Below, one piece after another: positions 1-64,000 of a stretch of 64,000 bases of DNA; positions within the stretch are counted from its first letter, which is position 1, and the number at the start of each line of letters is the position of its first letter. The stretch comes from Heterotrichella gracilis. Taxonomy: Eukaryota > Sar > Xanthophyceae > Tribonematales > Xanthonemataceae. Below the pieces are notes generated by a model, which was given only the letters and a program-made list of their open reading frames with translations, was not told where the DNA came from and did not search any database. Where the stretch lies: positions 4,329 through 68,328 of the forward strand of contig JAULBX010028382.1 of assembly GCA_032358255.1 (NCBI GenBank), in the 5' to 3' direction. The position numbers and the translations under genes are program-made.

Positions 1-227
1 ACCGTAACCAAGGGTGTTTTCCTTCTCAGCTTGGGCACTCAACAGGCCTACCTCGATGCTCTGTGTGGCATGGTGAACCTTCAGCACCCTGAACCCTAAA
101 CCGTAACCAAGGGTGTTTTCCTTCTCAGCTTGGGCACTCAACAGGCCTACCTCGATGCTCTGTGTGGCATGGTGAAACTTCAGCACCCTGAACCCTAGAC
201 CGTAACCAAGGGTGTTTTCCTTCTCAG
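1..227 (+). repeat. 99-bp tandem copies of the exon-2 edge of F-box gene A
   Basis: Two copies of a 99-bp unit start at 1 and 100, and a third begins at 199 and runs into the real exon at 228. Each unit holds a polypyrimidine tract ending in ttctcag, about 60 bp resembling the start of the exon (caacaggcctacctcgatgc), and a linker with a telomere-like piece (gaaccctaaaccgtaac). The copies are almost identical to each other but clearly different from the true exon, so they amplified after an older duplication. Gene B has one homologous copy at 4621-4710. Confidence 0.9.
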
Positions 228-487
228 GTGGGACACCCAGCAGGCCTATCTCGATGCTCTGTGTGGCATGGTGAACCTGGAGCACCTGGAGCTGGAGCTG
301 CGGGTTGTGTCAGAACCCCAATCTGACATGGAGGATGATGGGAGGACTCTGATGTGGAGGAGGACTATGCCAGGGCCTCCCAGATGGCTCTCCATTGCCT
401 GCAGGTGTGTCCTTGTGGGGCGGGTGGTGCATCTGGTGTCTGCATGTCACTTGCCTGGGGCTTGCATGTGATTGTTTGTGACAATGG

Positions 488-660
488 TACCGAGTGAAGC
501 TGATCAATTATTATCAGCTTCACTCGGTAACATGTGTACCATGTATGTACACATAAGGGGTGTACATGTTCACCCCTTATGTGGTGAACAAGTACATCAT
601 GTACATGTGTACATACATGGTACACATATATACAATGTACGTATATATACATTGTACATA
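488..660. repeat. Cluster of perfect inverted repeats in an intron of gene A
   Basis: Three nested or adjacent palindromes fill this stretch. 488-504 pairs perfectly with 513-529 (17 bp, 8-nt loop). 532-552 pairs perfectly with 607-627 (21 bp), enclosing a second hairpin, 551-562 with 571-582 (12 bp, 8-nt loop). 631-639 pairs with 648-656. The DNA is AT-rich in an otherwise GC-rich gene. No terminal repeats or target duplication mark it as a known MITE. Confidence 0.9.
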
Positions 661-3912: not shown

Positions 3913-6900
3913 ATGGAGCCCAGCCATCCACAGGGCACCACCCTGCAGGACTTTCCCACGGAGGTCTTGGAAGCCGTGCTTGGCCGGTTGCCCTTGGAGG
4001 AGAGGGTGGGGTCTCAGCTGGTGTGCAAGGGGTGGAGAGAGGCGCTGCAGAAGCCAGGGCCAGCGTGGGCAGACGTGGACATGAATCAGCTGCACACCAG
4101 CCTGCTGTACAGACACTTCCTGCGCCCGAACAAGGGCCCGAACGAGTTACAGGCGCCGAACTTGTGGGGCAAGTGGAACAGCGCAGTAGGGCAGCTGTTC
4201 AGTTTCCTGGTGGATGATACCTTGGGGGTGGAGGCCAGCACAGGGGAGGGCAAGCCACGCCTGGCAGCCACCACCAGCCTGCGCATGGGCCTCATGCTGG
4301 GGGATTGGGGGACGGATAGCCTGCTGCAGGCCGTGGATCCAGCTGTCCTGCGCAGCTTGAGCGGTGCGCTCCTGCGAATTGGGGTACTGGACAGTGTGGA
4401 GAGGTGGGATAAACAGGTTCTCATCATAACCTTGTCTAGCACCCATTACTATCACCCCCCTCTTTGCACTGACATTCACGCTATTTCATCTGCGTTGGTA
4501 CTCTCTGTTTCTATGTACAATAATAAGGGCTGGCTGCTTGCCCACTGTCCGGCCTTTGCCCACGCCGGAATACTTTTTACTCTTCTTTACTCCCCTGAGG
4601 GCGTTCCCTTCCCACCATTCTCAAGTGGGGGACCCAGCAGGCCACCCGTGATGCGCTGTGTGGCCTGGTGAACCTGGCGCAGCCTGAACCCTAAACCCTA
4701 ACCAAGGGTGATGTTCCTCTCAGGTGGGACAGCCAGCAGGCCTCCCTGGACGCGCTGTGTGGCCTGGTGAATCTGGAGCACTTGGAGGTGCAGCTGCGGT
4801 GGACGCACGATGACCATGGACTCCTGGCACTGGGGAGTGAATCTGATGTGGACGATCAGGAGGGTCCTGCTGAGGAGGACCAGGCTAGGGCCTGTGAGAT
4901 GGCCATCCTTGCCATGCAGGTTAGTCCTTGATGTCGTGGTGCCTTTTGTACCTTGTGTTCAGCCCAGGTTGTCACGGGTGTTGTTAGTTCCTTCCCTCCT
5001 TCGTTCCTTCAACAAAATGAAGCAAAAAATGGACTTTGTGCCCCATGTCACTTGCTATTGCATGGGTAAGGAGGCCAGTTGGGGGATTTAGCTTTGTCAC
5101 TGCTGACGGCTCCCCTTTCATTGCAAGGGGTGTGGATTTTGATGTATTTGGAGCAGGCTGCAAACCTGGAATATCCACCGCTCAATCACATTGAAAAAAA
5201 ATAATGTTATGAACCCAGTATTACATCTGATGTATTACAAACATATTCCCTGCAGGGTGTGTGCCGGTTGCCCATGCTGCGCACCCTGCGGTTATACCTG
5301 GTGGGCGAGTGGCCAGCAGTGGTCAGGGACCCATGTCCGCTGTCATCCCTGGGATCCCTCACCTCCCTGGTGGGCCTGGAGCTGCAAATACGGGGGGACC
5401 AGCAGTGGCGGGAGGCGCTGGGGGCGCTGGCGCCACTGTCACGCCTTGCCCATCTGCAATTTAGGGCTTTTGCCGCCGACCTGGGTGTGTTGGCCAGCCT
5501 GCCGCCCCTGCCCAGCCTCACCTACTTGAAGGCATTTGCTTTGAGGTGTCCATGCGTGGATGATTGGGTGGTGGCCCTGGCTGCGCAGCCGCAGCTCAAC
5601 AGCCTCTGGATCGAGTTCCAGGACATAGGCGGGTGGAATGAGATTGCGCCCGAGCTGTTCAGCTTCTCGGCCCTGGCGGCGCTGACCAGGCTGGTGGTGG
5701 AGGGGCCGCTGATCATCGGCGACCTCCCCACCTCCCTCAGGGGGCTACGATTGGACAAGTGGGAGGGGAGAAGGCACCCAGAGAACGTGCGCCAGCTGGC
5801 TGCTTTGCTGGCCACCCTCACCCACCTGACCGCCCTCGATCTGAGCCCCTTTGTAGTCGGGCAGGACCTTGAGCAGGCGCTGGCAGCCATGACCCAGCTG
5901 GAGGTACTGAAAGTTCAATGCAGCCACAGGGTCATTGATGGGCCACCCACCTTTGACCTGGTGCTCCCCGAGCTGCCATGCCTCCGCACCCTGGATGTAA
6001 AGCACGCCAGCTGTGGCCCTTCTTACTTGGATGCCGAGGATGACAAAGGCGGGGAGGTAAGGCAAGACCCCACCTCGAAAACCTAACACCTTGGATATCT
6101 TACCTGCATGTGTGCAAGAAGCCTACATATGCTCCGCTATGTGCCCTGCCTCCTCACTCTGAACATGGACGTTTCTGGAACCCTGCTGTGCAAAAGTCTA
6201 CGTCCTACCTTCACTCGCCTGTCTGCTCTGCCCTTGCACCCTGAATGTGCAGCTCACCCCTTAGAGCTCTGCTTCCTACCAGGTGGAGGGCGGTGATGAT
6301 AACAATGCCGATGGAGAAGACGGCAAGCATGATCCAGTTGGAATGCGTGCGGCCTCTGATAGCCTACAGTCGCTGAGATGCAGCAGTGAGGGTGACTACG
6401 AATCCAGTGTCTACGACTCGAGCGATGACGATGATGATGACGAGGAGGAGGAGGAGTGGGGGCTGGAGGAAGAGGAGGAGGAGGAGGGGATGGTGCCCCC
6501 AGTGGACGCCCAGCCTCCAGTGGTTAACCGACCTCCAGTGGTGCCTACGCCTCTGTCACAGCTGAGCCTGACCATGCACCTGCCCACAGATGTGGCCAAG
6601 CTGGTGTGCATTGTGCGGTGGAGCCCAGGGCTGGCGGGGGCATCGGTGAAGATGACGGGGCGGCACGGCAGGTGCGTGGGTACACATTTGTAAAATCAGG
6701 GCGGCATTGCAACAGTGGGGGTGCCTCGTCTGCACATTGGCCTGCATATGGATCTTGCAATCTTTGCCCACAGCCTGTGCCGCTATTGGCAAAGCAGCGC
6801 CCCAATATATTTATTTTTTTACAAATAAATTAATCATCTTTGTACCGTAAGTATCGCTGGTAGTATGCCTTTGCCCTTGGAGATGGGCTCTGGAGATTGC

Positions 6901-13305: not shown

Positions 13306-16300
13306 TCACAAACGGTTGTAGAGCGCCTGCAGCTCAGGGCTCCAGTGGTCCTGCCCAGGAGGAGGGGTGGGGCCCCGGTGGGGCCCGCGTGGGCGGTGCG
13401 GGGCGGCGGCTGGCACCACATTTGGCCCCATCAGGCTCTGTGACAGCAGTCGGGGGCCCATGCGCGCCGCCATGTCGCTGATGTCGCGCACCGCACATGT
13501 GACCGCCACCTGGCAGGGGGCAGGGGAGTGGGCGGGTTCAGCAGGGTGCGTGGAAACCCTACATGAGGGCTTTAGGGTCCATGCGGCACGTTGGAAATCG
13601 CACAGGCATGTGCTTCCGCACCCCCACTGGGCTGGGCAAGTGGTACCCTGAACATACAGCGCTGTCTCAAGATTGCCCAACGCTGCGCACCGAACCCCGT
13701 GAATATAAACCACTGAGAATGCAATCCTCACCTTGCGGTCTATTTCAGCCAGCAGCTGCTTCAGCCCCTGCTTCTTAGCCACTGATGCAAACACCTGCAC
13801 AGGCCCCTCATCCCCCGCTTCCCCCCCCTGCAGCGTCGAGTGATGTCCCAACCTGGCCTTGGCACAGCCCACCATGTGCGCATACTCATCCTCCCCTTGC
13901 AAACTGATGCCGCCATCCCCCTTGGGGATATGGGCCCCTGGGGGGGTCAGCAGGTCGATCTTGTTCCAGACCTCGATGGTGTGGTGCTGCAGGCGGGATT
14001 GGGAGATGCCAAGCCCTACAAGGGAAGTTTACAGGGGATTAAAGGATGGGGGGGTGCAGCTGGGGAACAGGGCCAAGGGCTTCTATGCCATGGCGTCTGA
14101 TGCAGAATTGAGTGCTTTTCATGCTAGGGCTTTGGGTCCACAGCTTAAGGATTGTAGCGGGTTTTGGGTTCTTTAGTGTACCTGCCAACACCTTGAGCAC
14201 CGCAGTGCGCTGGCGCATCACTCCCGGTGCCCCCGCATCGAGTACGTGCACTAGCAGATCGGCGTGGACTACCTCCTCAAGGGTTGCCTGCGGGGGGTAA
14301 GGGGGTGGGGATCAGGGTTCAGGGCGTGGGGTGTGCGCCAACAGGTCGGCATGAACAACCTCCTCTCGGGCGGGGAGGGTGTATATGGTTAGAATTGATA
14401 TCAGGGCGTGACACCGTGGCACACATCTGCTCAGATTATCATCTATGAAGTGGTACCTTTGATGACCTTGACCCTAACCACAGGTGCGTCAGTGTGAACA
14501 GGGTTTGAATTGGTGTCGGGTCCCCACCTGGAAGGCATCGATCAGTTGGACGGGAAGGTCAGATATGAAGCCCACTGTGTCTGAGAAGATGACGTGGCGG
14601 TGAGAGGGGAGCAAAACCCTGCGTAGGGTCGGGTCCAGGGTTTTGAACAGCTTGTCCTCCACACCCACATCTGACTTGCTCAGCGCGTTGACCAGGGAGG
14701 ATTTGCCGGCATTGGTGTAGCCTGCAGGGGTAGTGTGATCCATACGTAATCAAAACTGTGTGAATATATGTAATCGCAAGCAATCGCTGTCACATGCAAT
14801 CAGGCGCAATCACATCAGCGCAACATGTAGTGGTGGTATGAAGCACGTGGAGGTCCTAGGACATTGTGGTGGTGCATATGGTGCTGTAACATATATGCCC
14901 CATGACCCTATCATCGGGTTCCTCACCCACTATTGCCACCACTGGTTTGCCCGCCCGCCGTCTGGCCTCGCGCTGGGTGGAGCGGATGCGGCGAACCTGG
15001 GGGGATGAGTACATGTGTGAAGAAAGGGTCTGCTTGCTCATGGGGTACAGATGCGGAAGAATTTGTGGGGGGGACAAGCAAAAGGTATGTGTGCCAGGCA
15101 CATCTCTACTCAATTCCTCACCTCCTCCACCATTGCCCTCAGCGCCAAAGCTAAAACCCTACCCAAACCCTATCCCAAGCCGTACTCAAAACCCCATCAA
15201 ACCTCTCACCTCCTCCAGCTTTGACTTGAGCGCCCTGCGCCTGGCCGCCAGCCTGCCCCGCTGCAGCACCAGCTCGCTCTCGCCACCACCACCACCGCCA
15301 CCCAGGCCACCAGCGCCGCTGGAGCTGCGCCCTCGCTCCCTGCGGTGGAGGGTGAGGGAACGAGTTGCGTGATGGTGGTGTGCGTGAGAGAAGAGAGGGA
15401 GGGGTGGTGGTGCTCATGCAGTGTACTGCCCGGTGGTGGTGGTGATGTCTGGCGCTTTTGATTAGAAAGCATACCATCCATGCGTGTCTAACACTGGAAT
15501 TGTTTCGCAGAACCATGATGAAAAGCAAGCCATGATTGCAAAAACACCATGCTGAGCCGTCCACTGGCATTTGACCCCTCAATGCAGCCCGTTCTCTCCC
15601 CTTCCAGTCCAATTGCATTCCTCACCTTGCCGACACAACCTCCACCACCCCGCCCTCCCCAAACCCCTTGCGCCTGCCGCTTGCGTCCAGGCCACGCACC
15701 AGGCGGGAGGATTGGTACTCAAGGGAGGCAAGCTCAACCTGAGAGACAGGGGATGGCGCATTGCTTGACCTGGCGCCAATGCGGCAGGTGGGCGCTTCCA
15801 ACCGGTACAGGTTACTACTGCATATGTTTGATTTGTAAAGCGACTGTCTTTGTGAAATTTATTTAAATTTTGCTTTGAAAAATGGCATATTGAACCTAGC
15901 CGACAGGGCAGCACATGCACGGTTTCACCAGGGCGGAGCTTGTGTAGTTTCACCTAGCCACCCCACCCCACCTGCAACCGCGCCTCACGCGTGCGCGCCC
16001 GCTGCCCGAAAATGTCGATGATGAGTCCCACCCTGTCCACCACAGGCACGCCGCAGGCCGCCTCAAGGTTGCGCTGCTGTGCGCCGGTGAGCTCGGAGTT
16101 GACGAAAACCCTGCAAGGAGGGTTCCACAATGGGGTGCCACAAGGGTTTTTGTGGGATGGTGCAGGAGTTTATGCGAATGTTACAAGCAGCTGAACCACT
16201 GCTGGCATGCAATGGAAAGCCACCGAAACATGGTATGGTGCCCCGTGTCGACCCATTCAACCTCAACACCCCTAAACCCTCGCACCTGGCGGCGCCAATC

Positions 16301-16962
16301 CCTGCACAAACACCCTGCAGAGTTTCCACAGCGCCCTCCCCCAGAAAGGTGGCAGGCGACAGCCCCCGCCTGCTGCCTGGACCCAGCACCACGTGTGGGC
16401 AGGGGGTCCCGGTGTATGCCTCAGCCAGCCTCAGGGCCTCCTCCAGGGGTGCTTGCTTGCGCAGGTGCCTCGGGTGGACCACTAGGAAGGCGCCAGCTGG
16501 CGGGTGGGGGGTGGAGGACATGGCGCGCGTGTGGTGGGTGGCGGGGAGGGTGGGGGGTGGCGGGTGGCGGAAGGTTGTCCTCGTGGTGGGGCCATGGAGG
16601 GAGGGGACGGGTGGATACTGGGGTACCGCCGGGTCCCACAGCCACCTCCAGGGGTGGGGAGCGGGGTGTGGGGCTGTGGTGGGTGTGTGGCTGGTGTGGT
16701 GGGGGTCTGCCCATATGCAAATGTCGCGCTGTGTGGTGGCACGGGTGTCAAGGCTGGCCGTGTGGTGGTTGCTGTGCGGCTGGAATGCTACAGCGCTGGA
16801 GCAAGGTGCCGTGTGCTGGCAGCTGTGCAGGTTGTCCATATGTGTGAGGCTGGAGATGGCTGGTGCTGCTGTTGTTGTTGCCGCATGGCAGGCCGAGCGC
16901 AGCATGCTGGTGGTGCGGCTGAAAGCGGCGTGGCACAGGCGCGTGGCTGGTTGCATGCCCAT
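13306..16962 (-). CDS. HflX-type GTPase, probably organelle-targeted
   Basis: Nine exons in minus order, 16962-16286, 16110-15972, 15738-15626, 15339-15210, 14996-14927, 14721-14528, 14287-14182, 14015-13732 and 13509-13306, join in phase to 638 aa. HflX proteins are ribosome-associated GTPases that split stalled ribosomes. Visible: the HflX N-domain ([40 protein letters not shown]), the helical linker ([15 protein letters not shown]), G1 [10 protein letters not shown] (from residue 377), G3 DTVGF (424) and G4 NKID (494). The usual GTRGPGE-type glycine loop is replaced by a run of glycines before [10 protein letters not shown]. The N-terminus is long and rich in Ala, Ser, Arg, His and Pro, resembling a plastid or mitochondrial transit peptide. 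It is divergent with the IMPDH gene, 744 bp away. Confidence 0.94.
14332..14370 (-). repeat. Echo of the start of HflX exon 7
   Basis: It lies upstream of exon 7 (14287-14182) in gene sense. Over 11 codons it encodes [11 protein letters not shown] against [11 protein letters not shown] in the exon. Five of six codon differences are synonymous (GTA/GTT, GTC/GTT, CAC/CAT, GAT/GAC, CTA/TTG). No acceptor site directly precedes it. Confidence 0.85.
15116..15175 (-). repeat. Echo of the 3' edge of HflX exon 4 with telomere-like linker
   Basis: The + strand segment ctcacctcctccaccattgc...cagcgcc resembles 15205-15235, the end of exon 4 plus its donor. The two are separated by aaaaccctacccaaaccctatccc, a degenerate CCCTAAA-like tract. 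Confidence 0.65.
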
Positions 16963-17706: not shown

Positions 17707-20700
17707 ATGGCAGCGAACGGCCCAACCGTGCTGAAGTTCGATGACACTATCTCAGACGGTGTGGTTTTTTCTGCACCATCTTGCATGCACCTTTCGCCTG
17801 CCGCTCCGACAGCTGTACCCTTCCCTATGTGGCAGTTGCTATACATGCATTGCACGCTGGTGATGCGCCTGAGACTCCTAGAAACGCTTGTCAATTGCCG
17901 CTAGGTTTGGGCTTATAGCTGGGTTCCCTCTGCAGGCTACCCCGCATCCAAGTTGTTTGGCCAAGGCGTGAGCTACACCTATGACGATGTCATCTTCCAC
18001 CCGGGGCACATCAACTTCGCGGCCAACGAGGTGATAGTATACCGGTGCTTGACGACTGGACACCGCTGGGGCTTGTCAGGACCCGCATTGCAACATGGCC
18101 ATGGCTCGTGTCACGTGTTTGAATATGGCCGCTGAGTCAGCCTCGTGCTGGCAATTGTACTCGTCACACGCCGAGCCAGCTCCCTTGTCTCACCATCTGG
18201 AGCTGGCTAGTGCACCAAAGGGTGATATCTCAACGCCTTTCCTGTTGCTGCATACAATGCCGTCAGCCCATTGCTGGGCACTTTCGATTGTGCAGCCATT
18301 GTAGCTGATACTGCACTGTACAGCAGTAGGCAACAAACCTATTTTCCACCGTCTACAAAACATACACCTCACCGGACTAAACTTTACCCCAACCCTTGCA
18401 TCCCACCCATCCAATGCATGCATATAGCCATTTCCCTCCCCTTGACCCCCCCTCCACCCTTTCCTCCCCTTGACATCCCCCTTTCCCCCCCCTTTCAACC
18501 CCTTGTGCAGGTCAGCCTGTCCACCTATGTCACCCGCAACATCAAGCTGCGCACCCCCATAGTGAGCTCACCCATGGACACAGTCACCGAGGCAAACATG
18601 GCAATTGCAATGGCGGTGGTACGCGTCCACCCACCTTACCACCATGGAAAACCCTCCTGCAACTCATTGCTACATGGCACCCATCTCCTGTCAGGCATAC
18701 CCATCACTCATACCCACCCACATCCCAAAGTTGCAACAAATCCACCTGCCACAGAGTCGCCAGGCCCCATTGCACCCCTCCTGCCAGCCATGCCCACTCA
18801 GCCCCACGTGCATGCAATTTGAGCACAATAAGTATGCAAAGACATCGCATCTGAGCAGGATCCCCCCCGCACACGTGCACGTTTGCCCAGCAGCACCCAC
18901 CCACCCACCCACCCGCTGTGCAGTGCGGCGGCATGGGTTTTGTGCACTACAACATGAGCCTGGAGGACCAGGTGGCGGCTGTGTGGCGGGTGAAGGACCA
19001 CATACCGGGGTTTGTGGTGGACCCAGCGGTGCTGCGGGCAGACAACACGGTGGAGGACCTGTACAAGATCAAGGTGGGCGGAAGTACAACCCTAAATTTA
19101 AAACCATAAACCCTAGGGCTAATCCTGAAAGCAGAGAGAGCGTGTCAGGCACATACACCACCTTCCTTAGGATTTTTAACCCGCCATCAAATCTGCTGCT
19201 GGCCACCTTGTTACACCCATGGAATTGGCTGCTCATCTGCCTGCACTGCCACATGGGGGCATGCGCTAATCATCCCACTCCCCCGCCTCCCCGCACCCCA
19301 CCACTCACCCCCCACCCCCCGCACCCCACCACCCACCCCAGGAGGAGCGCGGCTACTCGTCCGTGTGCATCACCGACAACGGGTCAGTGGGCGGCAAGCT
19401 GGTGGGCCTGGTGACCACCCGCGACTACGACTTTGTCACAGACAGGCACACGCCGCTCAGCGAGATCATGACAACGTGAGTAATACGTGTGTGTTGGTTT
19501 GTGGGTGGGGTGGGGGGTATTGGCCAGCGGCTTGGTTTGTGGGTGGGGGTGGGGGGTATTGGCCAGCGGCAGAGGAATGGTGATTGCGCGGGGGAGGGCC
19601 GCGGGGCCGAGTGTGTTGTTTTGTGGATAATCAGTTGGCGGGGGTGCCTTGTGTGACTTTGGGCTGTTTCCCTTAGCATGAACAGCTTGGCGCGTCACTT
19701 GGCATGCATACATGCATGTGCTGACTTGGCGGTGGTGTACCCCCACCACGGAGATATGATGTCCGTTTTGGAGATGAGGTGGCGTGTGAGATGACATGGT
19801 GTGTGGATGTGGGTGGGGGTATTGGCCAATGGAATCCCTGTGCTCCCATTTGTCCACATGCAATTAAGTGTTGGCGCTGCCTTTTCCCCTCCACTGATCT
19901 CACCTGATCACACAGTTAATTACATTTGATTTGCATGCACCCCCAGGGATGTGGTGACCCTGACCGTGAGCGACACCTCTGTGGAGAAGGCGATTAACCT
20001 GCTCAAAACCACAAAGAAGGGGAAATTACCAATCGTCAACGAACAGGGCGAGCTGGTGCGTGCCCCTGCTATTCACACTGCACTATGTGAAGTACCACAT
20101 TGCTCCCTGTGGGTTGGCCAGCGCTGCGCCCCTCCTTGCATGCTTCGTCAATTTCATCCACCCCGCAGCACAAGAGCTGCCTTTCCCCCATTATCGCCAC
20201 ATGGCGTATGTACATCTCACAATACCCCCTCCCATCCCCCATTCCCCCCTTTACCCCACCCCTCACATGCCAATGCCCTCCCCACATTCCCCGCATGCAC
20301 CCTCCCCGCACATGCACCTCCCACCTCCAAACCCCCCTCCACCCCCCCCACCCACATAGGTGGCGCTGGGCACCCGCCAGCTGTTCCGCGAGCAGCGCCA
20401 CATGCCCAACGCTGGCCCCGCATCCCTGGGACCCGACGGGCGCCTGCTGGTGGGGGCTGCGGTGGGGACCCGGGACAGCGACAAGGAACGGCTGCGCGCA
20501 CTGAGGAACATCGCACACCTGGATGTGGTAATTCTGGACTCAAGCCAAGGTGTGTGGGTGGGAGTGGGTGTTCAGGCATCGTTCAACTCTGTGTGGTGAA
20601 GGGTGGGTGGTGGGGTTACTGACACACATCGCACCTGGATGTGGTCATTCTGGACTCCAGATAAGGACTTTGGCGGGGGCGATGGGGTGTGGAGGGCATT

Positions 20701-22640: not shown

Positions 22641-23827
22641 GCGCTGCTGGGGGGGGTGCTCAAGCGCTGCTAATGGGTTTGGGTGTAAAGAGGAGGGGGT
22701 GGGATGGGGGAGAGGACCCTCGGGAAGGGTGCTGCTAAGGTGGCAGGGCTATTGTGGTGTGTGGGGGATACCCTATTATAGGGTGTGCGCTCCCTACTGT
22801 GTGGTGGCTGCTAAGGACTTGCACGTGCTCCGTGAATGCCTATATAAGGGTTTTGGGCGGGGAGGTGGGGAGGATACCCTTGTAGCGCGTGTGCGCTCAA
22901 AGGGTAGGGAGTGGCTAGGGCTCTCAGAAACCCTGACGTAGGGTGTGTGAGCTGCTGGGGCACGCAGCATGCAGAGGTTTATCCTTTGTGGCGGCAGCAG
23001 GTTTTGGCTGCTCAATCTAGTATTTTAGAATATGCCTCTAGGGTTTTGGACACGCTGTGTGCCTTGAGAGTCCGCGTCTAGGGTAGGCGCCATGTGCTCA
23101 TTGCGCGTATGCATGGCATGGGCGCGGCCCTTGGGCGCACAGTTGGATTGTGCTCAGCGGCGCTAGCTTTGCGTAGTTCCACACACAAGCGTGACTTCAC
23201 ACAGCACAGCACAGTGTGCTCTGGTGCCAATATCAGCAGTGCAGTACAACTGGCAGCGCCAGGCGTTCAGCTGCTGCTGGGGTCTACCCTCACGCTGCAT
23301 TAGGTTAATGCGCCAAATAAGCGCGCAGTGCGCCAGATGAGCGCCCAGGATGCACAGTCTTCACATTCCTCGAGCGCAAAGCAACCCAAGGGGTTTGGGC
23401 ACTGAGTGGTCCACCGGGGGGCCACGTGCATGGGCTGACGTAAAGCTTCAAGTAACCTTGCACAGCTGTACAGCACGATCTGCAAGGGGACAAGGTCACA
23501 TCCTGCAGGCAAAGTGCAGCGTAGGGTTGGTGTATGTTTTGATGTCGACTGGTTATGTACCTGGGGTGCTTGGAGGATCGCCCCAAACACACCTTACCCA
23601 CCACAAACGACACCAGTGGTGAATGTCTTCAGCTGCCTGCTGGCGGTTGGTATGTTTGAAGGCTCAAAGCCAACTTTTATATGCTAATATTCGAGCAGCT
23701 TGCAACGATCGTACCGTGAGGAAGCGAGGCAACCAGTTGCTGTACGCCCGCGCCTTGCAGTTGGTTTGAAGGCGTGGGGAACAACCGGGCCCAATGTGCC
23801 CCGCATAGGCGAATACGTAGCGGCAAC
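22641..23827. other. Non-coding spacer between IMPDH and the ABC transporter
   Basis: I see no supported exon. There is a G-rich stretch at 22680-22960 with loosely repeated gggtgtgygctcc-like words. The ABC transporter promoter should lie in the last few hundred bases. Confidence 0.55.
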
Positions 23828-32554: not shown

Positions 32555-32803
32555 AAGGAGAAACTACACTATAAGGGGTGAAATCACCATTCCAGGAGGG
32601 AATAACCTTGTAGGGAATAACCTTGTTAGGAAGTGGTAGTTTGATAGGTCTTGCGATAAATGCGTGGCATATTCTCGTTCAACTGCTCAAAGTACAGTTT
32701 CATGCTACAACTGATGCCACCTATGAGTATTATCGGCTGACAACAGTTTTTTGACAAGAGTTTTATTTTTATTTTTTATATCTAGTGAATACACCGGACA
32801 AAC

Positions 32804-47696: not shown

Positions 47697-48656
47697 TCAG
47701 CTGTCGTGCAGTGGCCTCTTTACCCTCCTGAGGCCAGCAACCCTGATTTTGGGACCAGCGCTAGGAAACTGCAGCTTGCCCTTGTTCACAGCCAGTGGCC
47801 TGGGACCTGCTGGTGCAATCACCTGCTGGGGTTGGTGGCTGACTTTGGTGCCCTTGTCTTTGGTAACCGGCAGAGTAGGTGCCTGTGCCCCCGCCTTGCG
47901 TGACTCGAGTTGCTTGAAGCTGGGTGCATCGGCCATTGTTGGACTCTTGCTGTGGGCAGGCACCTGGGTTTTGCTGGCAGTGGGCTGGGCAGGCACCTGG
48001 GTTTTGCTGGCAATGGGCTGGGCTGGGACTTGGGCTTTGCTGGCAAAGGCAGGGACGCTACCTTCTGGCCGGCTGCCTGTGCTTTTGCCTGATGTAGCTT
48101 TGCCGGTGTTAGATGGCCTAGCTGGTTTTTGAGCCGCAGCTTTGCTTGCAGCCTTGGGCTGCCCAGGTTTGTTGGCTTTGCTTGAACCAGGGATGGTGGT
48201 CCCACTGGCCACCTTTCCCTTCTTTTTTGGCCGTGCTTGTTCCTCGTCTTCGCTTTCTTCAAAGTCATCTTCAGACTCACTGTCCTCCTCCTCGTCTGAG
48301 CTGCCACTGTAATCTGATGCTGAACCGTGATCCACACCACTATCGCTGTCACTGTCACCTTCAGCCTGTGCAGGCTTGCGGTTCTCCTTGTCCTTGGCAC
48401 TGGTGGTTGGAGCAGGCTCAGGTTTTGAAACCGGTGCCTTTCCCGCCAGTTTTATTGCTGTGCCCACTGGTGCTCTTCGCAAGGCTTCCACTTGTGCCGT
48501 GTCCAGTTCGAAGTCATCGAACGAGTCATCAGGCTCCGGTGGTACTGTGACGCCACTGGTGCCTGCACTGGGCGCAGCACGACTCCTTGCACTGCGGGAC
48601 GTGCCTGTCATGATGGGGGTGGCCCTAAAGCTATCAACACGGACGACTGCACTCAA
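47697..48656 (-). CDS. Intronless acidic/basic disordered protein with RAD51AP1-like C-terminal motif
   Basis: A single open frame of 319 codons; ATG at 48656, or alternatively in-frame ATG at 48611 (MTGTSRSARSR). The N-terminal third has PEPDDSFDDFELDTAQVEAL, then a serine/acidic tract (SDSDSG..., SSDEEEDSESEDDFEESEDE). A Lys/Ala/Pro-rich middle follows with three 11-residue repeats (SKAQVPAQPIA, SKTQVPAQPTA, SKTQVPAHS). The C-terminus, IRVAGLRRVKRPLHDS, resembles the RAD51-binding end of RAD51AP1 (GLSRxxRVKPLH type), and the N-terminal acidic DDDF-like segment is also reminiscent. If so, it would promote homologous recombination in the nucleus. Similarity rests on one short motif, so the function is tentative; the frame itself looks real. 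Confidence 0.65.
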   Translation of the reverse strand: MSAVVRVDSFRATPIMTGTSRSARSRAAPSAGTSGVTVPPEPDDSFDDFELDTAQVEALRRAPVGTAIKLAGKAPVSKPEPAPTTSAKDKENRKPAQAEGDSDSDSGVDHGSASDYSGSSDEEEDSESEDDFEESEDEEQARPKKKGKVASGTTIPGSSKANKPGQPKAASKAAAQKPARPSNTGKATSGKSTGSRPEGSVPAFASKAQVPAQPIASKTQVPAQPTASKTQVPAHSKSPTMADAPSFKQLESRKAGAQAPTLPVTKDKGTKVSHQPQQVIAPAGPRPLAVNKGKLQFPSAGPKIRVAGLRRVKRPLHDS

Positions 48657-49627: not shown

Positions 49628-52215
49628 TCACGCTCTTGACAATTGCATGTGCACATGTAATGCATCACCTTGCAATGCATGGGTCTTTGCCTCACCAGGC
49701 CCATTCGACAGCCCCGACACCCCCGCCAGTATCAAGAACCAGCTCAGCAGGCGCAGCGCCCTCCCCGACGTGCTGGTGGGCAGCGCCTCCCCTAGCGCTA
49801 GCAAGCCAACCAGAACCCCTGCACACACACACATCCTGCAGTGGTTTGCCGTCGGCTACTGCAGATGGTCACCTCAATGGAACGACATACAAGTTACAAC
49901 AATTGAGCAGCACAGTTCAATTAAATACCTCATCGATGCAACTCGGTCTCATGCTACAACAATGGCTTGTTCACCCTTGAAACCTTGGGTTTAGCCATGA
50001 AACCTAGACCCTGTGCACCCACCTGTGACCATGGACGACACCGCTGCGCACGTGCACACAATAACTGTGTTCCCGTCCTTGAGCCCTAGGGTCTGGAACA
50101 TGAACCCTGTGCTGGTCAGGCCGATGCTGCTCATGATGCCAAAGGGCACACCCAGGGTGAAGGTGCTGGCCAGCAAAAACCCTACACAGGGGACATCAAA
50201 ATTCACATGGTTTCTGTTTGATTCCAGGTAAGCAGGATTCGCTCATGCACCAATGTGCGGACCACCAATCAACTAGGCAGGATAAACACCCACACAAAGG
50301 CATGCGGGCCCCACTCCCACGAGCACCCCTCATCCATGCACCAAATGGTGCAATGCGACGCATCATGTAGGGTATGCAATGCAGCGGCCTGTACACCTGC
50401 CGTGCACGCTGCTGCTGACATACCAAAGCAGGACCCAGCCAGCAGGCCACAGATACACCACCACCACCACCATGTATGCGCCGCCACACCATCTGGTTGG
50501 AGTGGCGGTGGCAATGGCGCATGTGTGTTGGTGGTGACGAGTGCATGCATATGGTTGGGTGGTGCATCCTTGGTAGCATGCACACCTGTCCTGCACGCTG
50601 CCGCCGACATGCCGAAGCATGACCCTGCCAGCAGACCATAGCCCACAGACGCCACCCTCGGCTCTGGGCGCCGGTGCTTGGGCAGCCGCCGCTGCAGTAG
50701 GGCTGCCGCCACCCCTGCGGGGAGGCAGGCGCTGCAAGTTGGCAGGTGCAGTGGCGCAGCTATGGTGGTGCGCTGGTGCGATGGAGCATTCGTGCTGTTG
50801 GTGTGTTGTTGTGGGGTGGCGCAGCCATGTTCATTGATTGTGGTAGGGCATCCTTTGTGGCGGTGGTGCTTCATGGTAACGGTGGTTGTGGTTGTGCTTG
50901 CGGTGGTGGTGGCGCTGGTGCACCCTTGCATTGAGTGGTGGGAGTGCGTTTTCGCTGCACTCATCGCCTCCAGCACCATCGCGCACACCACCACAGCGGC
51001 CAGCAAGTCCATTACCTCTAAACCCTAGACCCTAAAACCTTGCACCACACCTATTGCCGCCAGCACCACAGCAAACACCACCACTGTCGCCAGCAGGTCC
51101 ACTGGCGGCTGCACCTCCTGCTCCTGTGCAGTGGCACCCAGCAGGAAGGTGCCCACGGCTGAGATGGACACAGCAACCCACTCTGGGGGCTGTAGCCGCT
51201 CCTGGGGACAGAAACGAGCGGGGTTGTGGGTGTTTGTGGGCATTCCTTTGCTCAATGCCCTCAAATGACTTGCTTGCTGTCACAAAGCAGGCTTGCAGCT
51301 GGACTGGTGTGTGGTGTGTGCAACGTTTTGGAGAGGGCGCGTGGCGCTACAGAAGTGGGTCAGGAGATTCTGACGGGGTGTACCGCTGGCAGTGCTGTGC
51401 CACATGCTACACAGATGGAGCTACTATGCCTTGGATATGAAGCAGTGGAGAGGTATGGCATGCGCTGCTGCAGAGGTTGCGGTGTGGTACGGTGGGGGTG
51501 CCGGGTTCCAACATGCAAGGGACAAGCAAGGGACCATGTGAAAGCCTTCCTTGTACTTAATTTGGCAGGCGAGGGGTGGTGCGCACGTCAGCAAGGGCTC
51601 ACCTGAAGGTAGAAGTGCGAAAAGACCGCCAGCGTCACCAGGCCGACGCCCGACACAGGCTGCACCACTGACACCTGCAGCCCACAAGGGGGGTGAAGCC
51701 TGCAAGACGCTTGCCTGGGTATCATAGTCTGGCACACTTCTTTGCTCACTAGGTGCCGTGCATGGCTTCCTGAAACTGACACCAGTCCGCCTTGCGGGGA
51801 TATGCGCATGGCTCAACCCAACGCGGGGGCCTTTCCATCACCTATGGTTTGGGGTATGGACTAAGGTGTATGGGGTGACCCCCAACAGATGAGGTGGACA
51901 ACAACAGTCAGCACACAAACTAGCAAGGCTGAACCTACATGCAACAGGGCATCCCTTCGAGCCATCCTGGTTGGCTATGGGGTGTTCAAGGGGTTGTGGC
52001 TTTACCGGTGCCAGGGCAAACGCAGCAATCATAAGCAGGCCCCCCGTCAGGTCAGCCAGGAAGCCAGTCAGCCAATCCCTGGACAGAAAGTACTGCTGCA
52101 CGATCTTGAACTCCAGGCTGAGCCTGGGCAGCGATTTGGTGGCATCTTTCTGCAGCGCCTTGCCGATGTTGTTGCCCGTGGAGGCCAACAACGTGATGGC
52201 GATGGCGAGCCACAT
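49628..52215 (-). CDS. NIPA/DUF803 family membrane protein (probable Mg2+ transporter)
   Basis: Exons in minus order, 52215-52006, 51674-51603, 51201-51051, 50714-50586, 50181-50023 and 49818-49628, join in phase to 303 aa. The family belongs to the drug/metabolite transporter fold and includes magnesium transporters of endomembranes. Visible: MWLAIAITLLASTGNNIGKA in the first helix, GLLMIAAFALAPVSVVQPVS, FYLQERLQPPEWVAVSISAV, GYGLLAGSCFGMSAAACRTG, FMFQTLGLKDGNTVIVCTCA and a last helix LLSWFLILAGVSGLS, giving eight or nine membrane segments. The tail after GPGE could be an intron reading through (donor-like cctg|gtgagg at 49689), so the last 20 residues are uncertain. Divergent with the JMJD5-like gene, 661 bp away. 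Confidence 0.88.
50392..50454 (-). repeat. Echo of the 3' end of NIPA-like exon 4
   Basis: It encodes CGLLAGSCFGMSAAACTAG against YGLLAGSCFGMSAAACRTG, followed by a donor-like gtgtac. Of 18 codons, seven differ synonymously and three by replacement. It stays in frame with the exon through the intervening 130 bases, and no acceptor lies directly before it. Confidence 0.93.
50945..51046 (-). repeat. Telomere-like tract and echo of the 3' end of NIPA-like exon 3
   Basis: Directly after the exon 3 donor, in gene sense, comes ggttttagggtctagggttt agag. It is followed by 60 bases encoding VMDLLAAVVVCAMVLEAM, resembling VDLLATVVVFAVVLAAI of the exon. Confidence 0.9.
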
Positions 52216-52876: not shown

Positions 52877-55587
52877 ATGCGGCATGTTGGGAGTCGGGCG
52901 CTGCGGCTGGCCCCCCACCGCAGCCACACCTCCGCCGCGCACTCGCAGCAACACGGGTTGGCATCGCCTGTACCACGGTTTGAACTGGCACCCGACTGCG
53001 ATGTCGAGGAGGGCCTGCCCACACTGGGGAAACAACCCTTTGTCCTCCAAGGTACGACCCTCGGGAGGGTACTGCCATATGTATGGGGTACCACTTGCTA
53101 GTATACATCCCTGCTGTTTCAGACACACGAACCTACTGGATTCATCACCTAGCCCTGCTCAGGTCCTGCAGGCGTACTGCACACTGTGTCTATGGCTCAT
53201 ATTGATGGCCACACCCGCTGCAGGGTCAATGACTGACTGGCCAGCTATGGCGTGGACAGTTGAGGGCCTGCGAGCAGCATACGGTATGCAATCGGAAAGT
53301 CCCTCCACCTTCCCAGCACTCACCACCTTTGGCATCACATGCTGGGCACTCCCAAACCCTAAACCAACGAACAAGAACCCTAAACCCTAACTTTAAAGGT
53401 ATAACCTGCTGCACGTGCCCGCCTGGAGGAGCGCCAAATCCTACACCCCCTGCTGTTAAACCCTGGTCCCAGAACCTGCTCCAAGCAGGTGGCTACCCAG
53501 AGGATAGCTCACCCCTAAACCCTAAAACCCCCACCCCACGCAGGCGCCTGCCTGATGCCGCTACAGCAGCCTGTCCAACCCCTCAGGGGAGCCCAAAACC
53601 CTACACCCAAAAACCCCTGCCTGAGCATTCAACCCTGACCCCAGGCCTTGTCCCTGCTCCCCCCCTGGCAGGTGCCTGCCCGGTTCCTGTTGAGTCCAGC
53701 AGCGGTGGTGCCGACTACCGCAGCATGTATGACCCCCTCAGGGCACGCAGGGGCCATTTTGAGGAGGGGAAGCTGGTCCCCCTGGCCACGGTATTGGACC
53801 AAATGGCGCCACCCGGCGGCAACATCCTACGGAGTAGGTGTGCCGGTGGCTGGGGGGAGCGTTTGAGTTTCCCCTAAAATCCGAAGGCTAGTTGCTTGGG
53901 GACAATAACATGTCGCCAGAGACCAGATGCATAGGGACAATACCTATGTGGCTGGTTCCCCAACTGTACCTGAGTTTGCGTTGTCGACGTTGCGCATGGC
54001 CCCTTCCAAAATCACCTGTGCTACACTTGTTCGGCAGCCTGCCATGCACCATTTGGCAAAAGGGCAACAAATGACACCATTTGGCAAATGCCACCCTCCA
54101 TTTTGGCACATGCTTGGGGCAGCACTGTGCACAATCAAATTACGCAATAGCATCAATTCAAGAGGATACCACATTATTATATCACAGTAAATATATCCTC
54201 CTGCAGTCGCTACCTGACATCCCCATCCCCTTCAAAGGATCAAACACCCCCGTGCCCCTCCCCGCTCCCTGCCCTTCCCCACTCGATTCCCCACCGCCTG
54301 CAGCCCCACCACCCCCACCTACTACCTAGCCCAAACCGACATCCTGCGCCACATCCCTGAGCTGGCACCCGCCATACCGCTCCCCCCTTACCAACAAGTG
54401 GCGCAGCGCCTGCACCGATGCAACGCCTGGCTGGGGCCCGCAGGCACAGCCACCCCCCTGCACAGGGACCCATACCACAACCTGCTGTGCCAGGTGAGTC
54501 CTTGCGGAGGCAGAAAGAACAATAATGCATGTATTTCTTAGTGCAAAGGGTGTATGCACAGTGTTGTAACAATCGCAGTCCTAATTGACTTATAAGCTTG
54601 TGAGCTGGTTACCTCTGGCGCAGAGTGCCACTGTGGTAATTTTGGCTTTGCGGATTTGGTGGATTTGGTGCATTATGAGATTGACCCTTTAACCCTATAC
54701 TCTTAAGTGGCTGCCTGTCCCTAAGGGTTAAGCTCTAAGTAAGAACCTTTAGTGTTGGCTGCTTGTCCATCAGATACAAGGCACCAAGGGGTGTGCGCCT
54801 GTACCATGGGAGTATACCCTAAAAGTTAAGACCCTAAGTAAAACCCCTTAATTACAGACCCATTGATTACAGACCCTAAGTAAACCCCCTTAATTACCCT
54901 TAAAGTCAAGACCCTAAGTAAAACCCCTTAATTGATTTTCCCGCAGGTGTGGGGCAGCAAGGGAGTGCGCCTGTACCACCCGCGCCACCACCAGCACCTG
55001 CACCCCTACACGCACATACCATTCCTGCGGAACACGTCCCAGGTGAGATTTATGTGTGTGTGTGTGTGTGTGTGTGGATGGGCTATGTAACGCACATGTG
55101 CGTGCCATGCTTGTTGCAATCGGCAAACGGTGTATCAGCAAATGTGGTATTCAGACTCGCCAAGTGGCACATGGAGCACTCGGTAGGTGTGAGGTATGTA
55201 AATGGCATGCAGATGGTATTGTGTTTGTGGTACTTCGAGTTGTAGGGCGCTTGCCATGCAAACCCAAGTTGAGGATCTCCATGTGGATGATCCCCAGTGG
55301 ATGATCCCCGTGTGGGTGCCCCAATGCTGCATAAACTGCACACCTGCACCAAAGTACCTCGCCAGTAGCCCTGTAGTCTCACCCCCTTGCTGTGCGCGCA
55401 GGCGGACGTGGTGTGGGATGCACACCCTGGCCAGCACCCTAGCGATACTGGGCCCCTCAGCCTGGCGGGTGTGCCCTACTTGAAGACGGTGCTGGAGGCT
55501 GGTGAGGTGCTGTACATGCCCCGCCACTGGTGGCACCACGTAACCGCGCTCACTCACAGCCTGTCCATCAACATGTGGTGGACATGA
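52877..55587 (+). CDS. JMJD5/KDM8-like JmjC 2-oxoglutarate oxygenase
   Basis: Exons 52877-53051, 53224-53283, 53672-53837, 54304-54493, 54947-55042 and 55402-55587 give 290 aa. JMJD5-type enzymes are Fe(II)/2-oxoglutarate hydroxylases acting on protein side chains. Order matches JMJD5: VPRFELAPDCDVEE...PFVLQG, SMTDWPAMAWTVEGLRAAYG, CPVPVE, YYLAQTDILRHIPEL, NAWLGPAGTATPLHRDPYHN, VWGSKGVRLYHP, GEVLYMPRHWWHHVTAL and a Trp-rich end. Predicted iron ligands are His187, Asp189 and His274. The N-terminal helical domain of animal JMJD5 is missing. Instead about 30 Arg/Ser/His-rich residues (MRHVGSRALRLAPHRSHTSA) could be an organelle presequence. The exon 3 donor (gtag|gtgtgc) was chosen because only it keeps the frame. 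Confidence 0.9.
53354..53660 (+). repeat. Telomere-like tracts in JMJD5-like intron 2
   Basis: ccctaaaccaacgaacaaga accctaaacccta at 53356-53391 and cccctaaaccctaaaacccc at 53511-53530, plus single ccctaca/ccctaaa words. They are dispersed, not a long array. Confidence 0.8.
54640..54940 (+). repeat. Echo of JMJD5-like exon 5 and ccctaagtaaa repeats in intron 4
   Basis: 54769-54808 (catcagatacaaggcaccaa ggggtgtgcgcctgtacca) resembles the acceptor and first 35 bases of exon 5 (54947). It is followed by three copies of gaccctaagtaaaacccctt aatta between 54826 and 54936. Confidence 0.85.
55052..55077 (+). repeat. TG microsatellite in JMJD5-like intron 5
   Basis: About eleven consecutive tg units, 10 bases downstream of the exon 5 donor. 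Confidence 0.95.
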
Positions 55588-56761
55588 TGGCGGTGGCGTG
55601 GACCATCGGCAGCCATTTTGACCCTGTTTTGGCGGCATGGAATGGGGTTTGTTCCTGGTTGTGCAGGTTCATGGTGTCTGGTTCGGATTGGCTGGTGCTT
55701 GGACTGGTGTAGCTTCAACTGGAGACTTTGCATCAGAAACAAAAGGGTCCACCGTTGCCATGGTTGGTTAGAGTCCAAACTGTGCTAGTGGGTATTAGGG
55801 TTTTAGGGTCTTGGGTGGGCCATGTTTTGGTGGCCACCGGTTCAGGGTTTGGGGTTTCAACTTGAAATTCAAGCTTTTGGAATCCGATTGTTTTGTGTTC
55901 TTGCACCCTCCTTTGTAAAAATAGAGCTCCTGCAGTCAGAGTAGGTGTTATGACGTGTGTTTCGACTCCGTCTCCGAGGCGACTCTTCCACTGAACGGGA
56001 TCCCGGGCATGACATTGCAACTACAAAATACACTAATGCTTTTGGGTTACAAGCAGGCTCAATACAAAGTGCCTTCGCCCAATTGAACACAGGTTACCCA
56101 ACGGGACCCACTGTTGGGTTCTGGTGCACGTCTGTTGGCATACTCAGCCCCGAAAGGCTACTTGACCTAGGGGCAGTTTGAAAGCCTAATTTGGATGTTT
56201 GGAGGCCCTGCGACGTTTAACACCCCTTGTCCGTCCCTTTTGGGTGCGGTCCCTGCTACGAGGTTGTGGGATCTAACATCTTCGGCGTGACGTCCACCGG
56301 GTGACTGTCCTGATGAGGGAGTCTACATAGGTGAGGTTCAATACACACTGGGTACGCACGCTGTATATCGAACTTCAACCCACCCACAACGTCCTTTGCG
56401 TCGGCGTTCGCCCTTTTCATGGTCTCCTCCGTCTATGGGTGCTGGCATTTCAGACACTGAAGCAGCAATTCTTGAAACATCCAACATCCTATTATGCCAT
56501 CCACCATGCATGCAGCTGCACAGCACACCGCAGTAACCCCCACCAGCTCCCAACAGTCCCACCACACGGGAAAAACAACCAAACAACCCCACCAGGGTTC
56601 TGGTTTGACCTATGGCAACCCCAGCCCTTTCCTGAAACACCCAACGCCCTCATCCACCAGGAAACCCACTTCCACCATCCATGGCGCGTCAAAACCCACC
56701 CCAATAACCCACCACCAGCTCCACACCAGCCCCACCTCACGGGCACAACCACCCCTCAGCC
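55588..56761. other. Non-coding spacer
   Basis: No supported exon. The first part after the JMJD5-like stop is its 3' flank, containing ggtattagggttttagggtc at 55791-55812. The segment 55960-56330 is unique and unexplained. Confidence 0.55.
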
Positions 56762-61188: not shown

Positions 61189-64000
61189 TCACTGCTGCTG
61201 CGGTGACCTGAAGAGTGTGAGCCACGGGTAGTGCATGTGTTGCAGCTGCAGGGATGCCTCCATCATGGCAGTGACCACATAGGCGTACTGGCAGGTGGGC
61301 ATGAACTGGGCGGTCTCCTCGAGGAACTGCTCCCACACCAGGTCCGCCTGCAGGGTGGAAGGGTATAAATGAGGGGTAGGGGTGCGGCAGGAGAGAGGGT
61401 TCAAACAAATCTGTGTAAATGTGGGGTGTGTGCATGAAAAATAGCCCTTGCTGTTGAGACAACAAACGGCTGTGTGTGTGCACTTGCTTACCGCCCATTG
61501 TTAGCATCACACTTCCCTGCCGTCCCCCCCTCCAGCCCCCTTCCCGTCTCCACCACCACACCCACACCCACCTTGAGCAGCAGCGCCTTGATGGTATCCA
61601 GCTTGCCGATGCTCTCAGGCGCCTCCCCACCACCACCACCACAACAACAACAACCTGAATTACACCACCGCCACCCCACAAAACACCACACCCACCACAT
61701 CACCACACCCACACCCGCCCACCTTGAGCAGCAGTGCCTTGATGGTATCCAGCTTGCCGATGCTCTCAGGCGCCTCCCAGCACCTGCTGATGGCGGTGGG
61801 ATAGGCGGAGAGCGAGGCAGGCTCCTGGTTGGCCAGCTGCTGGAGATCGTCCAGCAGCTCGTAGTATGCGCGGCCAAGGATCTGCTCCTGGGTGCGCAGC
61901 GACTCCTGCGGGGGGGGTTGGGTGGGTGTGAGGCGGTGGGGTGGAGGGGCCAAGGTTGTGTTCCAAGGGGGTACACACACCCCTATTGTGTGCAGGGGAT
62001 GACGATGTCTTATTTCACGTGATTTAATGAAAGTAAGCGGATGCACAGGCGTCCTTATGAGACACCCCATGCGCATCATCCGAGGAGCTCCCATTCCCTC
62101 CCCTCATACCCCCACAACCACCACCCAGCAGGCAACCCCCATATCCCCACCCCGCCACCCCCCATCCCCGCACACCTTGAGCGCCTGCAGCTTGAGCCTG
62201 TGCAGCGAGGACAGCCCCGGCCCCAGCTTGTGCAGCACCCCATGGGCAGCATCTGAGGGCCGCAGGTTGCCCAGCCAGGCAAAGGGCCGCTCCGCTGGCA
62301 GCAGGTGGTCGAGGAACATGATTCCCGTCACCCGCTCGCTGCCGATGACTGCTTTTTTGAGTGCCAGGAGGTTGGCCAGCTGGGTGCGGGCGTCCTCCAC
62401 GGGGCCTCTGCAGGTGTGTGGGATGGGTCCTCATGTATTATTTCTTATTTATCATTATCATTATATTAGTATTAACCTTATTATCTTCCATCAACCCGTG
62501 TTTGATAGTAATTGCGACGTTTCGCCCTGGTGTACATTCCCTCAAAACAGTGGTGTTGCTCTGTATATGCTTGTGGAGGGATTTGCATTGCAACTCACAA
62601 GCCACACCTCCCCACCCACAACCCCCACACACCCACCTCCACCAACCACACCATCACCACCACCACACCCCTCCACCCACCTGAGCGCCACATCCGAGGC
62701 ATCATGCTCCAGCAGCTTGCGGATGCTGAGCACAGTGACCAGGTGCTGCGCGCGCCACTGGTCAAAGGCCGCCTTCACATCATAGCTGCCACTGGTGGCG
62801 TCGGTGGTGAGGGGGGGCGGGGCCAGGCCCAGGCCGTCGTGCGCAAACATGGAGGGGGGGCGGTCAGGAGAGACCTCGCCTGCGGGTGGGGAGCGGGGGT
62901 GAGGTGGAGTGGGCAGGCGGGTTGGGGTGGGTGAAGGAGGGGGAAAGTTGCGGTGCCCAAGGGGACTAAAAGCAGGATTATTTTCTGGTGTGGTTTCTCT
63001 GCGGTGCTCTCCATGTGACAGGGTAAAGACGGGACTCGCACCCTGCCAAGTGGTGCATGCAACAGCGGGTGAGTGCTACCCATTGGCGACAAGGAGGTGG
63101 TGACAAGTGTACTCCCGACATTGCCCTACCTAGCGGCGCCGAGGAGGGCACTGCGGTGAACGCCGAGCGCTCCCCTCCCCTCCCCCCCTGTCCCCTGTGC
63201 GAGGTGTGGATGAGCGGCTTGATTGGGCCAGGCGACTTGGTGGCAGCCGCCATGCCGTGCATGCGCCCCATGGAGAGCAGGTCGGGATCCGGCAGCAGCT
63301 GGGGATAGCTGCAGGGGGAAACAATAATACATTATTCGATGAAAAATATCACTATCAATTATAGTCAATTATAGTAAATTTATCATTCGAAAATACTACA
63401 CATGATACGGTGGTGGTAAAATTGAATGTACATCAGTTGCACTGGGCTTGGCGCCGCATGCGAAAGGCTGAATTTTGATCCGACGGTATCGGTGGGACGC
63501 CGCGCATTCCCAAGCTCAAGCGCCACCCCTTGCCTCTCCTTCCCACCCCCACGCCCCACCCCCTGCCCCCACCTGTGCTCGCCGTGCGCGCTCCCGCTGT
63601 GGCGCTGGTGCAGCGGGTGGCCACCCCCCTCCAGGGTCAGGGGGGGTGCGGCGGGTACCTCTGTGGATGCCATTCTGGACAGGTGGGGCACCACACCCAG
63701 CTGCTGCTGCCTCAGCTGGCGGACCTGCAAGGGGTGGGAGAGGAATTAAGTATGTGTGTGTGTGGGTGAAAAGGGGGGGTGAGGGTGATGCGGGGGCAGG
63801 CATCAGCTGCTGCTGTCCCCTCAGTTTGCGGCCCACAAGGGGCTGTGTTGAATGCATGCATTTAGTGGATATCAAATGTACCACCCAACAATCCCCCTCT
63901 TTGCAGCTCCCATGTCCACTCCTCTCCCAAGTGCACAGCTCCAGATGAACAGCAAGCGCACCATCCGCTGGGTGTGCACATTGCTTGCGCCGCTGCATGC
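61189..64000 (-). CDS. Unrecognised helical protein, C-terminal part; 5' end outside the window
   Basis: Exons in minus order, 63724-63573, 63308-63130, 62879-62681, 62407-62176, 61905-61723 and 61347-61189, join in phase to the stop at 61189-61191, about 300 residues. Another exon may lie at 63900-63960 (RMVRLLFIWS). The first exons are low-complexity; the rest is strongly helical: AAFDQWRAQHLVTVLSIRKL, EDARTQLANLLALKKAVIGS, HGVLHKLGPGLSSLHRLKLQ, YYELLDDLQQLANQEP, DLVWEQFLEETAQFMP. This looks like an alpha-solenoid or vesicle-tether type protein, but I cannot name the family. A downstream exon is possible, since a donor-like ttcag|gtcacc lies just before the stop. Confidence 0.75.
61572..61628 (-). 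repeat. Nearly identical echo of the 3' end of the 61905-61723 exon
   Basis: 57 bases match 61723-61779 with one difference (GCG for GCA, synonymous), including the donor. The flanking cacacccaccttgagcagca is shared too. It lies in the downstream intron and is the youngest echo in the window. Confidence 0.95.

Follow-up and report, generated by a model that had tools for sequence, protein, structure and literature searches.

Breaks in DNA can leave short copies of their surroundings behind. In plants, templated insertions by polymerase theta and tandem duplications from paired nicks both place short, same-orientation copies of nearby DNA at repaired breaks, and we know of no splice-site preference in either class of event. 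Introns can be gained by tandem genomic duplication at AGGT, in which case the new repeat spans both ends of the new intron (PMC3443670). In mammals, telomeric repeats are inserted during double-strand break repair, sometimes with flanking duplications (PMC2246262), and introner elements form repeated families, some of which carry target duplications of 3-9 bp (PMC9860276). Here, we analyzed short copies of exon edges that lie in the neighboring introns, which we call echoes. A search of an open-access literature subset found no description of exon-edge echoes with telomere-like spacers, the spacer being the sequence between an echo and the real edge.

The window, the whole stretch of 64,000 nucleotides that was analyzed, comprises bases 4329-68328 of contig C586 in a genome of 68.5 Mb and 903 contigs. 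We sampled exon edges from the window and from 17 further 10-kb contig-start stretches of the same genome (L numbers denote stretches of this genome outside the window). Three stretches, L004, L007, and L020, were left out before counting because they were unlike the alga, with a GC content of 0.36, 0.37, and 0.65 and a predicted coding fraction of 0.89, 0.78, and 0.88, respectively. With their deviant GC and 78-89% predicted coding sequence, these starts of contigs C1 (894 kb), C100, and C750 are likely bacterial or other non-nuclear sequence within the assembly. Gene models for the window and 20 contig-start stretches were made with a small, self-trained gene-finding HMM; they have no transcript support and fuse neighboring genes in places (e.g. 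17707-34246). The output comprised 316 exons of at least 60 nt and 305 introns with a median length of 273 nt, and the splice consensus in these models was G/GT[AG]NG for donors and TGCAG/G for acceptors (the slash marks the junction). Pfam searches bore out several gene names given in the preliminary description, namely F-box, HflX-like (a ribosome-binding GTPase domain), ABC transporter (membrane region), WD40, and cupin-like (JMJD5-like), whereas IMPDH stayed below the cut-off (18.7 versus 25.6 bits) and a NIPA-like exon was tried without a match. Specifically, the F-box domain lies in exon 3913-4401 of F-box gene B and ABC_membrane in 30311-30583. The genome contains 43 matches to chlorophyll a/b-binding proteins; the large subunit of RuBisCO was searched for in the genome and not found, perhaps because the plastid lies outside the assembly, and we infer that the source is a photosynthetic alga. 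CCCTAAA telomere repeats open contigs C70 and C140, a telomerase RNA-binding domain is encoded at C626, and interstitial tracts of the same repeat type are numerous (209 exact four-unit matches, overlaps counted).

Exon-edge copies in neighboring introns are genuine, occur far above chance, and extend beyond the window. When the window was compared with itself at 34 bits or more, 22 direct-repeat alignments were spaced less than 500 bp apart, versus 1-2 per 500-bp bin between 500 and 3000 bp, and a second excess at 4-5 and 8.5-9.5 kb equals the spacing of the F-box paralogs. In most of the short-spaced window pairs, one member sits on an exon edge of the HMM models. A wider 270-kb sample at 38 bits or more gave 89 repeats spaced below 250 bp, 22 at 250-500 bp, and, beyond that, 0-1 in each 250-bp bin to 1250 bp. 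Each exon edge was also scored against the 300 bp next to it and, as a shuffled pairing that the preliminary description had suggested as a check, against the corresponding stretches of other loci. At a cut-off score of at least 36, copies were found for 37 of 259 donor edges and 24 of 263 acceptor edges in the window and the 17 stretches, as opposed to 0 of 5622 and 1 of 5700 shuffled pairings. For the window alone, the counts were 8 of 83 donor edges and 5 of 85 acceptor edges, one of these five being the 61.7-kb echo itself, called as an exon. Since at least 6 of the 61 sample rows resemble echoes miscalled as exons, the true rate is nearer to about one edge in ten. The density of copies in the window had been taken as a hint of a genome-wide process, and the recurrence of the excess in contig-start stretches from other contigs agrees with this.

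About 18 echoes had been counted in the window by the preliminary description; 14 were accepted here. On the forward strand, two echoes of the acceptor edge of F-box/LRR gene A occupy 1-198 as 99-bp units next to the real copy at 199-286 (units 98% alike, third unit 85%, by self-alignment), and the acceptor edge at 4724 of F-box gene B is echoed at 4619-4681 (84% over 63 nt, spacing 99), with a telomere-like CCTGAACCCTAAACCCTAACC in the spacer. By eye, the combination of echo and telomere-like spacer is common to both F-box genes; a further F-box paralog lies on C856. Other forward-strand acceptor edges are echoed at 24525-24561 (edge 24677; 84% over 37 nt, spacing 154), 28182-28232 (edge 28318; 77% over 53 nt, spacing 99), and 29161-29230 (edge 29272; 85% over 71 nt, spacing 77), the last with AAACCCTAAC at the echo start, and forward-strand donor edges at 20618-20666 (edge 20549; 82% over 51 nt, spacing 118) and about 30691-30723 (edge 30583 of an ABC transporter exon; 84% over 31 nt, inside a weak longer repeat). 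Most copies include the splice site, as had been described; the exceptions, also on the forward strand, are the echoes at 21280-21321 and 21918-21960, which repeat exon sequence 21100-21141 (81% over 42 nt, spacing 180) and 21734-21776 (84% over 43 nt, spacing 184) and stop 64 and 37 nt before the donors at 21205 and 21813, respectively. On the reverse strand, echoes of donor edges lie at 41867-41935 (edge 42024; 96% over 70 nt, spacing 141, with donor GTGAGTGGG in both copies), about 42922-42992 (edge 43028; an old echo, 72% over 71 nt, donor row score 52), 50387-50452 (edge 50586; 82% over 66 nt, spacing 189), 50963-51011 (edge 51051; 80% over 49 nt, spacing 90), and, in the last gene, 61551-61627 (edge 61713; 93% over 81 nt). 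This last one is the youngest echo of the window and contains the near-perfect copy that had been quoted before: 61567-61627 and 61718-61778 differ at 1 of 61 positions, at a spacing of 151.

The earlier list of genes with echoes thus holds for, among others, F-box A, F-box B, the ABC transporter, and the last gene, but the HflX-like gene (13306-16962) has no echo at the thresholds used, and the cupin/JMJD5-like gene contains only intron-internal repeats. These are an array of ~38-bp units with telomere-like CCCTAA words at 54815-54933 (repeat scans and self-alignment) and a repeat at 56500-56753 directly upstream of the predicted acceptor 56760 (78% over 83 nt, spacing 171), both on the forward strand. 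Another forward-strand repeat, at 695-744 and 832-880 (88% over 50 nt, spacing 137), is likewise internal to an intron and holds no exon-edge echo. Repeats among the WD40 exons (37107-40381) are protein repeats rather than echoes, and the 33-bp and 39-bp tandem arrays at 47953-48046 and 19494-19570 lie away from exon edges in the HMM models.

Two features of the echoes are new. One is that their exon part reaches 10-98 nt (median 55, IQR 37-69, with six whole-exon-match rows set aside), but their intron part mostly ends 0-18 nt past the splice site (45 of 61 rows), stopping short of it in 13 rows and running beyond 18 nt in 3 (median 7, IQR 2-11). At donors, identity to the real edge is 24-27 of 33 at +4 to +6, 18 of 33 at +7, and about one third from +14; at acceptors, it is 15 of 23 at -8 and 7 of 23 at -9. 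The other is that, also among young pairs, few spacers match what follows the echo. Most repeat-to-repeat spacings are 75-120 or 135-210 bp, the post-echo stretches stay intron in the HMM models, and composition is donor-proximal on both sides, in the spacer as well as after the echo. Matches to other loci were found for 19 of 54 spacers versus 4 of 123 control introns, many of them to telomere-tract loci, not each of which was checked. All four spacers tested were single-copy in genome searches, which argues against a mobile element, and repeats of at least 5 nt at the echo ends, of the kind left by target-site duplication, occurred in 2 of 35 cases versus 0.5 expected, which we count as a negative outcome. 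On these two results, an introner or transposable element was rejected as the source.

Identities range from about 98-100% to about 75%, consistent with the graded ages noted earlier. Across 65 exon/echo pairs, mismatches at codon positions 1, 2, and 3 numbered 109/1030, 99/1025, and 218/1020, which is the ratio of about 1:1:2 expected between a free echo and an exon changing only at silent sites; echoes decay roughly as neutral sequence. Their donors are not specially kept either (G in 27 of 33 and T in 27 of 33, like the surroundings). The near-neutral codon pattern and the unconserved splice sites together indicate that the echoes are real old events, most of them without visible function. 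Functional decoy exons were accordingly rejected, because echo splice sites are kept no better than their surroundings. When the pairs are split by age, those with at least 85% identity have 25/449, 13/447, and 70/449 mismatches at the three codon positions, and older pairs 84/581, 86/578, and 148/571. The young pairs are thus more biased towards silent sites than 1:1:2, which goes beyond neutral decay alone and counts against the reading that we favor below.

Telomere-like repeats are enriched around echoes. The density of telomere-like 7-mers is 43 per kb in 56 spacers versus 7 per kb in 232 echo-free introns (both strands summed), and at least two such words are present in 24 of 55 spacers and 17 of 55 post-echo stretches, versus 213 of 2850 control windows (about 7.5%). 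In the youngest spacer class, telomere words were found in 2 of 15 spacers and 3 of 15 post-echo stretches, so the telomere link may be secondary. Acceptor spacers carry them on the C-strand (46 to 1) and donor spacers lean towards the G-strand (81 to 51); the bias of the acceptor spacers may reflect branch-point or pyrimidine needs. Starting instead from 32 distinct interstitial tracts (L024-L053), we found a flanking direct repeat scoring at least 33 at 16, a count for which the same-locus null is contaminated by other echoes. At L027, L033, and L052, the flanking repeats directly abut the tracts. Telomere coverage has no peak at the duplication junction. The tracts may favor such events, may mark where telomerase acted in some of them, or may do no more than lie in the same introns. 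We also observed arrays in which edge copies alternate with telomere tracts two to four times (L026:1420-1740, L039:1380-1660, and L052:1250-1950), and at L049:2700-2900 the spacer and its flank seem, by eye, to derive from a telomere tract located further along that intron, in the manner of template switching.

Tandem duplication at exon edges had been brought up as a route of intron gain or growth, and only growth finds support. Introns with a donor echo are longer, with a median of 436 (n=27) versus 281.5 (n=204), where length-biased sampling alone would give 372. Intron birth, by contrast, should leave a direct repeat at intron-length distance spanning both splice junctions, and 0 of 297 sample introns have one at a score of at least 26. 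At lower scores, such birth-type repeats numbered 17 versus 9.5 expected (at least 14), 2 versus 1.3 (at least 18), and 1 versus 0.23 (at least 22), and among 82 introns near telomere tracts only L038 has one. With the signature absent from the sample and found once near tracts, birth was rejected as a general explanation. In the L038 intron (1489-1678, in region 1380-1770), two copies of the exon-exon junction enclose a telomeric core, which makes it a candidate for intron birth through telomere-filled duplication. Whether the echo or the spacer is the inserted part, intron lengths fit both geometries (281.5 + 150 versus 372 + about 60), and composition does not discriminate between them.

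We tentatively propose that exon edges are recurrently copied by local break repair, which leaves the copies in introns, a reading to which we would give somewhat less than an even chance. An intron break or a stalled fork close to an exon would be repaired by copying a neighboring piece of exon edge, about 25-110 nt long, usually with its splice site and in the same orientation. This piece would remain in the intron, usually at a distance of 30-130 nt from the real splice site. Since the real splice site and exon would be intact, the event would be tolerated; the intron would lengthen and the copy would then decay as non-coding DNA. The proposal builds on what was observed, that is, the copies, their excess over shuffled pairings, their ages, near-neutral decay, and ends, the longer introns, and the excess of telomere tracts. 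Break or fork repair would be the maker of the copies, and the telomere-like tracts would be fragile sites or traces of telomerase at breaks. A point against the proposal is that generic repair gives no reason for copies to end at splice sites.

Plain tandem duplication followed by decay, which was favored at first, we now regard as an unlikely origin of the copies. It supposes that duplications of 75-300 bp arise anywhere in genes and that only edge-spanning ones stay recognizable: exon-internal units would be purged, intron-internal units would decay in both copies, and at edges the selected exon copy would keep the repeat visible, so that the echo ends with the constraint. Ends at donor +6 and acceptor -8 agree with splice-site constraint, older window paralogs also lose similarity 1-12 nt from the splice site, echo introns are longer by about the repeat spacing, and the donor-like composition flanks the echo on both sides. 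A minority of pairs fits fully, with a spacer/post-echo similarity of at least 22 in 16 of 55, such as L011 6027-6440 (95%, 106-bp units). In addition, residual spacer/post-echo similarity beyond the first 12 nt reaches at least 20 in 42% of 55 pairs versus 6% (same-locus) and 4% (other-locus), and the spacers of 11 of 18 young pairs match within 800 bp versus 11 of 94 in the null, several of these matches being arrays or telomere-like. Both results fit partial tandem duplication and weigh against break-repair copying. However, in pairs with at least 94% identity the spacer/post-echo similarity averages 0.22 of the maximum score (n=14), with 1 of 14 above 0.4, whereas simulated tandem duplication predicts 0.78-0.82 at 4% echo divergence and 0.56-0.67 at 8%; nor is this similarity correlated with age (rho 0.13, p 0.34). 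Such a mismatch between spacer and post-echo sequence even in young pairs argues against duplication and decay for most pairs. If units were placed at random, 32% of the tolerated events would fall on edges, whereas 54 of 71 observed events lie there, and 14 of 19 among pairs with at least 88% identity; F-box A is entered as intergenic in this analysis since the HMM misses its exon. Moreover, one non-local repeat pair (L016, 76-83%) stays similar 106-199 nt into predicted introns. The age test and both simulations thus speak against plain tandem duplication with decay for most pairs: it accounts for a minority, and the majority arose in another way or not by it alone.

A larger role for telomerase is also rather doubtful. 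Staggered breaks at exon edges could be extended by telomerase and then joined, giving an edge, a telomeric filler, and an edge, which would amount to the mammalian process of interstitial-telomere insertion with larger duplications. Exact joins of this kind are present at L027 and L052, and the enrichment of telomere words in spacers, their strand pattern, the greater frequency of cross-locus matches among spacers than control introns, and the matching telomere repeat and telomerase domain of this genome all suit it. Insertion at breaks with duplications is known in mammals, but duplication is minor there, at 6 of 130 rodent and 4 of 25 primate loci (PMC2246262). About half of the spacers lack telomere words, which are rare in the youngest class, and the missing peak at the junction is a further point against telomerase.

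Accounts that invoke splicing address the ends of the echoes more directly. Copying could be aware of splice sites, with exon-edge pieces delimited by the splicing machinery on nascent RNA or on a DNA-RNA hybrid at the exon border and copied at breaks near telomere-like tracts, which we consider improbable. Alternatively, an echo could stem from pre-messenger RNA: splicing factors would set the end of a fragment at the splice site, and reverse transcription would place it in a break within the gene it came from. Ends just past splice sites on both exon sides follow naturally only from a process that senses these sites; against the RNA route, local placement in the same orientation requires no RNA, and two joined exons were, as an incidental observation, noticed in no echo. 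We hold this route to be quite improbable. Exchange with a diverged allele or strain, or gene conversion from exon to echo, could explain why echoes look younger than the flanking intron halves and why young pairs are biased towards silent sites, and match runs are indeed slightly longer than permuted ones (18.6 versus 16.6, sd 0.6). Nevertheless, adjacent mismatches are not clearly clustered (95 versus 84.5, sd 7.5), searches with two window stretches revealed no second haplotype, and the account would require the intron halves to diverge much faster than silent sites do, which makes exchange or conversion very unlikely. An assembly artefact is hardly credible, given that the copies are present on many contigs and differ by 1-25% with a codon-position pattern of the kind that evolution produces, not assembly error.

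Intron lengthening, unlike intron birth, is rarely caught in the act, and one genome here offers a graded series of events at about a tenth of its exon edges, each dated internally by its conserved exon. Because the copies stop so sharply at the splice site, a connection between splicing and DNA repair can be put to the test, and if copying were aware of splice sites, the splicing map of a gene would steer its own mutation. There is also a practical consequence: echoes keep good splice sites and the gene finder called 16 of them exons, so false mini-exons can be expected in annotations of such genomes.

Compared with known systems, the echoes are, like the products of polymerase theta and paired nicks, short same-orientation copies of nearby DNA. 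They resemble intron gain by AGGT duplication in being local, in the same orientation, and inclusive of AG/GT, but differ in that one edge is copied into an existing intron (PMC3443670). With mammalian telomeric insertion they share interstitial tracts, some with flanking duplications (PMC2246262); here, however, the association is with exon edges, 20-100 nt duplications are frequent, and many of the spacers consist of non-telomeric sequence. Finally, as with introners, introns are remodelled en masse in an alga-like genome (PMC9860276), except that here all four spacers tested were single-copy and introns are not newly made.
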